A stretch of 64,000 nt of DNA, from the NCBI GenBank assembly GCA_020630595.1, contig JAHDBC010000002.1, forward strand, positions 40,835 through 104,834, in the 5' to 3' direction. The notes below the pieces were generated by a model. It was not told where the DNA came from. It ran no database searches and was given only the letters and a program-made list of their open reading frames with translations. Below, piece by piece: positions 19,737 through 23,938 of this stretch. The position numbers and the translations under genes were made by a program. This DNA is from Planktomarina sp. (lineage in GTDB: Bacteria; Pseudomonadota; Alphaproteobacteria; Rhodobacterales; Rhodobacteraceae). Within the stretch, counting starts at the first letter, position 1, and the number at the start of each line of letters is the position of its first letter.

Positions 19737-21827
19737 TCATCCGACGCTGATCAATTGGATCGCTTTGTCCTGTTCCATCAACCACAAAAGCATGCGCACA
19801 GCCTGCCCGCGTTCGGATTTCAATTCGGGATCTTGATCCAACAAAAGCCGCGCGTCTTTTTGCGCTGTCGCCATAAGATGCGCCTGCCGTTCCAGGTTGG
19901 CCACACGAAAACGGGGCACCCCGGATTGGGCGGTTCCGATCACATCGCCCGCACCGCGCATTTCCAGATCGGTCTGCGCGATGCGAAACCCATCTTCGGT
20001 TTCACGCATGATCGACAGCCGCTTTTCACCATTTTCGGATAGCGGGGCCTGATAGATCAAAAGGCAGGTCGATGCAGCGGCACCGCGCCCCACCCGGCCG
20101 CGCAGCTGATGCAATTGGGCCAGGCCAAAGGATTCCGCCCGTTCAATAACCATGATGGTGGCATTGGGAACATTGACCCCGACTTCGATCACAGTTGTCG
20201 CAACCAAAACCTGTGTGTGCCCCGCAACAAAGGCTGCCATTGCTGCGTCTTTGGCCTGCGGTGGCATTTGCCCATGGACCAAGCCCACAACACCATCGCC
20301 CAATGCGGCTCGCAAAACCTTGAACCGTTCTTCCGCAGCGGTCAGATCCATCACTTCGGATTCTTCCACCAATGGGCACACCCAATAGGCCTGCTTGCCC
20401 TGCGCGACGGCCTGCGCCAGCTTGGCAATCACCGTTTCGATCCGGTCTGTGGGCACCGCCGCCGTCGTGATCGGCTTCCGCCCCGGCGGCTTTTCATCCA
20501 GAACAGACACATCCATGTCGCCATATTGGGCCAATTCCAAAGACCTTGGGATCGGTGTCGCCGTCATAACCAGCACGTCGACGGTTTGCCCTTTTGATCC
20601 AAGCGCCATGCGTTGGGCCACACCAAACCGATGCTGTTCATCAACAATCGCAAGCCGTAAGTCGCAAAACACAACATCATCTTGAAACAACGCATGCGTC
20701 CCAACCAGAATCTGTATCGCGCCGCTGGCAAGATCGGCCAGTTTTGCGGCACGCCCGGCACCTTTGTCCCGTCCCGTCAAAACAGCAAGTCTGACCCCCG
20801 CCTGGGCAGCCAGATCACGGAGGCCTTCTTCGTGTTGGCGGGCTAGAATTTCAGTTGGGGCCATCAATGCGCCCTGCCCGCCTGCTTCGACGGCAGCCAA
20901 AAGCGACAGAAACGCCACAAGTGTTTTCCCCGATCCAACATCCCCTTGCAAAAGTCGGTTCATTCTTTGGGATGCTGCCATGTCGGCCTGAATTTCTGAG
21001 ACAGCGCGTGTTTGCGCACCGGTCGGTCGATACGGCAACGCAGACAATACCCGTTGCTGCAACTGGCCCGTCGCCACGGTTGTGCGCCCTTGGCCGGAAC
21101 GTTTGCGCGCGCGTGCGATGGCCTTTGTCACCTGATGGGCAAGCAATTCATCATACGCCAGTCGCTGCCTGTGGCGATGATCCGGACTGGTTTCGGACAA
21201 GGCTTGCGGCGCATGGCCGGCCTGTAGCGCAGTTTGGAAATCCGACCACCCGTTTGTCTTGACCACTGATGGTTCGATCCATTCCGGCAAATCAGGCAAT
21301 CGATCCAAAACAGATTTGGCCAGCTTTTGGATGGTTTTTGCGGTGACGCCGGCAGTCAGCGGGTAAACGGGTTCAAAATCGGGCAATCGATGGGCCTGAT
21401 CCGGCGCGACGATCAGATCGGGGTGGGTCATCTGGGCGCGCCCGTCGAAAAATTCCAGCTTGCCGGACACGATGCGGCGCGTGCCCTTTGGCAGTTGGCG
21501 TTCGACAAAATCCCCCTTGGCATGAAAGAACACAATGTCGAACGAAAGCGCGGAATCGGCCACCGTCACGCGATGGGGGCGGCCCCGGCTGCGTGGGGCG
21601 GTATGGGACAATACGGTGATTTCCACAGTAATCACAGCACCCGCATCACAACCCTGCACAGTGTCAACCGGGCGACGATCGATCACATTGTGTGGCAGGG
21701 TAAAAAGCACATCCCGCGGTTTTTCGATCCGCAATCCGTGCAGATTCTGGGCTGTCTTTGGTCCAATCCCCGGCAGGCTGGTCAGATCGGAAAACAGGGG
21801 AAACAGAAGATCAGGGCGCCCTGTCAT
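19737..21827 (-). CDS. recG: ATP-dependent DNA helicase RecG
   Basis: Branch-migration helicase that remodels stalled replication forks and Holliday junctions. The protein has 696 residues, the usual length. The N-terminal wedge/OB domain starts near [15 protein letters not shown]. Motor motifs: Walker [17 protein letters not shown] near 290, DEQH box in [23 protein letters not shown], and the C-terminal [11 protein letters not shown]. It begins inside the stop codon of ligA (ATGA), so the two are translated together. Confidence 0.97.
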
Positions 21828-23938
21828 GGGGTAATCAAGGCAAGCCAGGCGTCTTCGTCGATCACTTGCACACCCAGATCAGCGGCCTTTTTCGCCTTGG
21901 ACCCTGCACCCGGGCCAGCAATGACCAGGTCCGTTTTTGCAGATACCGATCCCGATACTTTGGCGCCCAAGGCTTCGGCACGCGCCTTAGCCTCGGACCG
22001 TGTCATCTTTTCCAACGTTCCTGTGAACACAACGGTCTGGCCCGCCACGGCACTGTCTGACCGAACGGTGGGCGTGGCGGGTTGGACGGTCAGATGTTGG
22101 ACCAAATCCCTGATCATCGTCAGCCGGTCTGTGGATTGAAACGACGCCGTCAGGGACTGCGCCAGCACGTCGCCCACCCCGTCAATGCTGATCAGATCGG
22201 ACCATGCATCCGATGTTCGATCTGCCGCAGTGATCATGGCTGTTTCGAATGCGGGCCAAGTGCCATAATGCTGCGCCAAATCCTTGGACGCGACTTCGCC
22301 AACATGGCGCAAACCTAATGAAAAAATCACCCGGTGCAATGCGATCGAACGGCGCTGATCGATTGCATCAAACAGTTTTTCTGCGGATTTTTGGCCCCAC
22401 CCATCCAGATTTTTCAATTGCTGCGGTTGGCCCGGTCCAAACCGTTCCCGCAAGGTGAAAATATCGGCGGGGGAAGCGATCCAGCCTTTGGCATGAAACA
22501 CTTCAATCTGTTTTGCCCCCAGCCCTTCGATGTCGAATGCCGCGCGGGATACGAAATGTTTGAGCGCTTCGACTTCAAGTTCAGGAAGCGGATCTGTGCC
22601 CGTATAACGCCAGACAGCGTCCCCGTCTGCCCTTTGGGCCTGCAGCCCCAATTCATCCAGTTTTTTCGAAAAATCAAATGGTTGCGCCTGTGCAGGGCGT
22701 TTTGACAGATCGACATCCGATACCTTTGGGATGACATCACCGGCACGGTAAATCTGCACCCAGTCGCCAATGCGCAGGTCCTTTCCACCCCGGATGGGAT
22801 TGCCTTTGTTGTCTTTGCCGGCGATGTAATTTTCATTGTGCAGCGTTGCATTTGATACAACCACCCCGCCGACGGTAACCGGCGTGAGGCGTGCCACGGG
22901 GCTAAGCGCGCCCGTGCGGCCAACTTGAATGTCGATGTCTTCCAGCGTGGTCCATGCAAGTTCCGCTGGAAACTTATGGGCGATGGCCCAGCGGGGTGTC
23001 GTTGCGCGAAACCCAAGCCGGGCCTGCAATGACAGGTCGTCAACTTTGTAAACCACCCCATCGATGTCATAGCCCAAAGTGGCGCGCTGGCGTTCGATTT
23101 CACGATAATGGGTCAAAGCCTCTGCCGGGGAATGGCACAGACGGGTCATTGGGTTGGTTGAAAAGCCCAACTGGTTCATGCGTGCGATGGCGCCTGACTG
23201 TGTTTCAGCCAACGGTTCAGAAACGTCGCCCCAGGCATATGCGAAAAAGCGCAGCGGCCGGGCCGCGGTGATTGTGGCATCCAGCTGGCGCAAGGATCCA
23301 GCCGCAGCGTTCCTGGGGTTTGCAAATGTCTTGCCCCCGACCGCGGATTGACGCGCGTTCAGGGCCGCGAAATCGTCGTGCGACATATACACTTCGCCCC
23401 GAATTTCCAAAATGTCTGGCGCACCAACCAATGTGGTGGGGATGTCAGAAATCGTGCGGGCGTTGGCGGTCACATCTTCGCCGGTGGTTCCATCCCCCCG
23501 GGTGGCCGCATAAACCAGTGCGCCGGATTCATAACGCACAGACAGTGAAAGCCCATCGATTTTAGGTTCTGCCGTGTATGCAACACTTTCTGAATCAAGC
23601 CCAAGGAATTTGCGAATACGCGCATCAAAATCAATGATATCGTCATCGTCGAATGCGTTGCCCAGCGACAGCATCGGAACGATATGGGTGATTTTTGAAA
23701 ACCCGTCTGCGGGGCGTGCCCCCACTTGGGCAGATGGGCTGTCGGGGCGGATCAGATCGGGAAACGCCTTTTCAAGTTCAGCATTTCGACGTTTGAGCGC
23801 ATCATATTGCGCGTCATCCATGACCGGGTCGTCAGCTGTATGATAGGCCGCGTTCGCAGCCCCCAAACGTGCCGCAAGATCAGCCAGTTCTTTCGCGGCC
23901 TGATCTTTGGAAAGTTCTGATACTGGTTGATCCGACAT
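21824..23938 (-). CDS. ligA: NAD-dependent DNA ligase with a degenerate zinc-finger region
   Basis: Seals nicks in replication and repair using NAD. The protein has 704 residues, close to the family norm. The adenylation lysine is K126 in [12 protein letters not shown], with [12 protein letters not shown] after it. The OB fold, helix-hairpin-helix repeats ([11 protein letters not shown]) and a C-terminal BRCT domain ([15 protein letters not shown]) are present. Odd: the zinc-finger segment, residues about 420-460 (DNA 22559-22678), holds none of the four usual cysteines; the family CTG reads YTG and the CPAQ region reads LPEL. The whole protein has a single Cys, in RLCHSP. It overlaps recG. 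Confidence 0.95.

Follow-up and report, generated by a model that had tools for sequence, protein, structure and literature searches.

A genus-wide, probably metal-free variant of the NAD+-dependent DNA ligase LigA in Planktomarina

Introduction

To our knowledge, the zinc finger of the NAD+-dependent DNA ligase LigA is nearly universal. In canonical LigA, such as the enzymes of E. coli (2OWO) and D. radiodurans (8AK4), an adenylation domain with a KxDG lysine is followed by an OB fold, a Cys4 finger (PF03119), a helix-hairpin-helix (HhH) domain and a BRCT domain, and the finger has been ascribed the role of holding OB and HhH in place (PMC5052709). When the zinc finger, HhH and BRCT were together removed from Haloferax LigN, ligation was abolished while adenylation was kept (PMC1684257). 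The wBm-LigA of Wolbachia, an endosymbiont lineage, was reported to be without a tetracysteine domain on the basis of annotation and alignment; the purified enzyme seals nicks in vitro, and deletion of a dispensable domain was suggested by the authors (PMC3397958). E. coli LigB is missing two of the four zinc cysteines (PMC5507437), and is a second, weakly active, non-essential ligase that has no BRCT domain. Outside the ligases, the Ros/MucR proteins Ml4 and Ml5 of Mesorhizobium loti are zinc-free, folding and functioning by means of a larger hydrophobic core and a hydrogen-bond network (PMC9779718).

The LigA described here is encoded in a 64,000-nucleotide stretch of Planktomarina DNA, referred to as the window. 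It has the domain order, KxDG lysine, OB, HhH and BRCT parts of canonical LigA, and the predicted OB-HhH geometry is the same; however, the place of the Cys4 finger is taken by an equal-length segment that is free of cysteine. The absence of a tetracysteine is shared with Wolbachia wBm-LigA, but in Planktomarina the segment has been kept and rebuilt, in contrast to the deletion suggested for Wolbachia. E. coli LigB is comparable as an NAD+-ligase with an incomplete zinc site, although the window protein retains its BRCT domain. The principle proposed below, replacement of a metal by a hydrophobic core, is the same as for Ml4 and Ml5; these contain an unrelated C2H2-type transcription-factor domain for which zinc-binding paralogues exist, whereas in Planktomarina an essential enzyme would exist solely in the metal-free form.

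The ligA gene and its product

The coding frame runs uninterrupted through 704 codons on the minus strand, a strand that the original prediction did not give (Table 1). The three Pfam domains that follow the adenylation domain (PF03120, PF12826 and PF00533) all score above their cut-offs, and the EPK126IDG adenylation motif is invariant across the alignment. The exception is the N-terminal Ia domain (PF22745), for which residues 26-64 reach 19.7 bits, under the 27-bit cut-off. Curated LigA models, which do not require the Cys4 finger, align to the protein from residues 17-25 on and are matched over their full length, with 789 bits for NCBIfam PRK07956 (NF005932; cut-off 369) and 699 bits for TIGR00575 (cut-off 444). 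The LigB model scores 144.8 bits, below its cut-off of 498, and the BRCT domain is present. The window protein is thus LigA by every tested feature bar the zinc site and the sub-cut-off Ia domain, and is labelled a variant because no PF03119 match was found and none of the four expected positions holds a cysteine. It had been claimed from the sequence that the lysine, OB, HhH and BRCT parts are intact and that the gene is the only ligase in the window; the parts are intact and no other LigA lies in the window. The search for a second ligA that had been proposed alongside these claims extends the latter, as this gene is the sole LigA match in the assembly, which has no other NAD+-dependent ligase.

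Table 1. Positions in the window of ligA, its downstream neighbour and the mapped parts of LigA
Feature	Position	Strand	Basis or remark
ligA, NAD+-dependent DNA ligase, zinc-less variant, 704 aa	21824..23938	minus	ORF, Pfam, NCBIfam
recG-like helicase gene, downstream of ligA	19737..21827	minus	ORF and sequence
Adenylation (NTase) domain, residues 79-326	22961..23704	minus	PF01653, 312 bits
Adenylated lysine K126 codon (EPKIDG)	23561..23563	minus	KxDG motif
OB-fold domain, residues 330-417	22688..22951	minus	PF03120, 98.7 bits
Replaced zinc-finger segment, residues 419-462, Cys-free	22553..22684	minus	Column comparison of zinc-less and zinc-bearing LigA; AF2 model
L427, first zinc Cys position	22658..22660	minus	Leu in 16/16 congeners
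L430, second zinc Cys position	22649..22651	minus	E, L or A in congeners
W443, two residues before third Cys, usual Arg	22610..22612	minus	Trp in 16/16
Y445, third zinc Cys position	22604..22606	minus	Tyr in 16/16
L451, fourth zinc Cys position	22586..22588	minus	L, M or S in congeners
Helix-hairpin-helix, residues 536-607	22118..22333	minus	PF12826
BRCT domain, residues 633-702	21833..22042	minus	PF00533

The stop codon of ligA and the start codon of the recG-like gene share the bases ATGA (21824-21827), a 4-base overlap that makes translational coupling of the pair probable. Two further minus-strand genes lie upstream of ligA, one directly adjacent (24002-24739) and the other encoding a small protein (24807-25115); their products are taken to be a CtrA-like response regulator and a SciP-like protein, respectively. 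Since comparable motifs adjoin ligA in several relatives, zinc-bearing ones among them, the cell-cycle regulator genes and ligA-recG appear to be long-standing neighbours.

The replaced zinc-finger segment

No match to the zinc-binding domain DNA_ligase_ZBD (PF03119) is obtained in the window LigA by Pfam even at E<=1. When the cysteine columns are set by alignment to E. coli LigA (2owo) and 16 zinc-bearing family members, they fall on L427, L430, Y445 and L451, and the whole of residues 419-462 is without cysteine, which bears out the original observation that all four zinc ligands are absent. The segment has no gap in either direction relative to zinc-LigA, so the finger has been altered residue by residue and not deleted. 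Comparison of 16 zinc-less sequences gives 13 invariant positions (F421, F423, L427, R436, G439, D440, A441, W443, R444, Y445, G447, E457 and L459), among which the R436, G439, R444, G447 and E457 columns are in register with zinc-LigA, and W443 occupies a column that is mostly Arg in the zinc-bearing enzymes. Among the zinc-less sequences, pN/pS (Nei-Gojobori) comes to 0.284 for the segment, against 0.283 for the remaining gene; purifying selection on the replaced segment equals that on the rest of ligA.

A metal could in principle still be held by other side chains, and conserved acidic or histidine residues do occur in or beside the segment, namely D422 (15/16 zinc-less sequences), D440, E457 and H461. 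However, the last three are common or invariant in four-Cys zinc-LigA as well, no new conserved set of Cys or His ligands is found in the segment among the 16 sequences, and the two former cysteine positions that are invariant are now Leu and Tyr. Binding through alternative ligands is therefore considered very unlikely, and the conserved pattern points to a segment that is probably metal-free.

Distribution within Planktomarina and beyond

Planktomarina is an oceanic genus of RCA-cluster roseobacters, and isolate IMCC1909 has been placed in Planktomarina temperata (PMC10675870); this RCA-cluster genome paper makes no mention of ligase or zinc, and the literature covered, which lay mostly outside subscription journals, yielded no description of a LigA lacking zinc in this genus. 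The finger region is readable in 19 of 20 Planktomarina genomes and the four cysteines are absent from every one (19/19). In their place stands a motif of equal length with small variations, FDFxxKLxxxGIxGxRxxGDAVWRYSGxxPLxxLAIExLKHF, again in 19/19 readable genomes; among these are the cultured strain IMCC1909 (L055) and G011, a 100%-complete genome in a single contig. When the genomes of about 85,000 species were scanned for the motif, 17 loci were obtained, IMCC1909 among them, and each is entered either under Planktomarina or under Rhodobacteraceae/Alphaproteobacteria. In viral contigs the motif was not found, and LigA-like ORFs of viral contigs that span the finger region keep the Cys4 in 9/9 cases.

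An artefact of sequencing or assembly, or a pair of compensating frameshifts rewriting residues 420-460, might be suspected, as most members of the genus are metagenome-assembled drafts and in two of them, G017 and G018, ligA is interrupted by a frame shift or by stop codons. This explanation is rejected because the same motif occurs in independent congeners, 19 genomes in all with an isolate and a complete genome among them, and also conflicts with the five columns that stay in register with zinc-LigA; its probability is negligible. The first reading of the sequence had already taken the clean frame to argue against a simple sequencing slip, and no compensating frameshift was found. As for the two drafts, ligA of G017 (L031, L063) breaks near residue 462 and that of G018 (L029) contains one TGA and two TAA; the breaks are read as probable draft assembly errors because no other LigA was found in these genomes.

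The proposed comparison with LigA of other Rhodobacterales places the boundary of the change at the genus. In a Rhodobacteraceae survey of 296 genomes from 295 genera, PF03119 is matched in 292; of the remaining four, two belong to Planktomarina and in two no ligA was detected, such that outside Planktomarina the finger is present in every family genome where ligA was found. In a phylum-wide sample PF03119 is matched in 367/396 genomes, and among the non-matching genomes listed besides the window's own, direct reading gives four cysteines with a longer spacer in 19/19. A CPCPLKT-type finger with such a longer spacer, which PF03119 misses, is seen in many alphaproteobacterial LigA (L073-L090), and consequently an absent PF03119 match does not imply absent cysteines. 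The Cys4 pattern is also present in 80/80 further alphaproteobacterial LigA loci across families. The genus-wide extent of the loss is beyond the reach of the single sequence from which the original prediction was made. With the finger region left out of the LigA tree, all zinc-less sequences fall in one clade, with modest support (UFBoot 70). The simplest account is that the finger was lost once in the ancestor of the genus, earlier than the split between the known Planktomarina species.

Other ligases and other zinc proteins

The window's genome carries an ATP-dependent ligase gene of another family on a different contig (L133, contig 5, 21500-25500), which presumably resembles the bacterial repair type. 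Such a gene invites the explanation that LigA is decaying, its finger lost under relaxed selection while another ligase covers replication. A PF01068 ligase is found in the window's genome and in G019, but six of eight congeners tested have none, and an enzyme absent from these six is no general substitute for LigA; with a presence in only 2/8 congeners, the backup ATP-ligase was rejected. Decay would also be at odds with a segment that is conserved and under the same pN/pS as the remaining gene, with catalytic and clamp domains that are intact, and with the retention of the Cys4 in LigA of a streamlined alphaproteobacterial order of small (~1.2-Mb) genomes, probably SAR11 (30/30). It is thus highly improbable that the finger was lost through decay.

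The same 30 sequences bear on a second proposal, that of adaptive, cell-wide zinc sparing in zinc-poor water, which concerns the cause of the change and not the metal-free fold. In its favor, Planktomarina is oceanic (PMC10675870) and some ribosomal proteins of bacteria, S4 among them, are known to be exchanged between zinc and non-zinc forms (PMC3087516). However, the zinc cysteines are retained in the three other zinc-finger proteins compared in Planktomarina (RecR, MutM and IleRS), as they are in all 30 LigA sequences of the ~1.2-Mb order; general zinc sparing is not supported and is judged unlikely, and the loss of the zinc site looks specific to LigA.

Predicted structure

The full-length AlphaFold2 model of LigA is of middling quality (pLDDT 75), and so residues 326-609 were modeled separately, with a mean pLDDT of 89 and a pTM of 0.79; blocks within the 419-462 segment have pLDDT values of 83-94. 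A helix is predicted at residues 423-430; a β-hairpin follows, with WRY 443-445 at its end, and residues 452-462 are predicted as a further helix. AlphaFold2 does not model metals. The best crystal match of the domain model is 2owo, E. coli LigA on nicked DNA (Z 24.3, rmsd 2.8, 254 aligned, model residues 1-284), implying that the connector keeps the OB-HhH arrangement that is ascribed to the zinc finger. The OB-HhH geometry is therefore predicted to be as in E. coli LigA, with an ordered helix/hairpin/helix module between the two domains. The PR1 phage heterodimeric ligase (9hu3 chain F) is also a structural match to the Zn-HhH region (Z 11.4, rmsd 3.1, 150 aligned).

The suggestion that the linker may have been replaced by a metal-free fold, for which a structure prediction of this region had been proposed as a check, thus gains support from the conserved motif, the purifying selection, the lack of a Cys/His set and the predicted ordered module joining OB and HhH.

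A probable metal-free linker in a sole LigA

Taken together, it is very probable that the sole LigA of the genus is an active replicative ligase in which the Cys4-zinc linker has been turned into a metal-free mini-domain by constant-length substitutions. In the proposed mechanism, helix 423-430 would stand where the CPxCG knuckle once stood, and would lead through the β-hairpin to WRY 443-445 and then to helix 452-462, with OB and HhH in the arrangement of DNA-bound E. coli LigA. F421/F423, L427, I/L432, W443, Y445, L454 and their neighbours would, judging by the sequence and the predicted secondary structure, pack as a hydrophobic core in the stead of zinc, and L430 and L451 would also take part in this packing. 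Such a core would allow LigA to clamp DNA with no zinc at the linker, in a form that would have arisen once, prior to the divergence of the known Planktomarina species. As to the cause, the change may reflect drift via a metal-tolerant intermediate, or it may have made an essential enzyme less vulnerable to the oxidation of thiols or to the displacement of its metal.

The zinc-less form is a genus-wide variant that is new among LigA, and a case of the loss of a structural metal site in an essential enzyme. Zinc-bearing sister genera at 65-70% identity make it a natural experiment on the role of zinc in LigA, and a zinc-independent ligase for laboratory use may be possible. On balance it is likely, if with less assurance than the reading of the linker itself, that Planktomarina, a free-living and abundant marine genus, has a naturally zinc-independent sole replicative NAD+-ligase in which the zinc knuckle became a helix/hairpin/helix module with a hydrophobic core; such an enzyme may withstand a loss of zinc or the oxidation of thiols.
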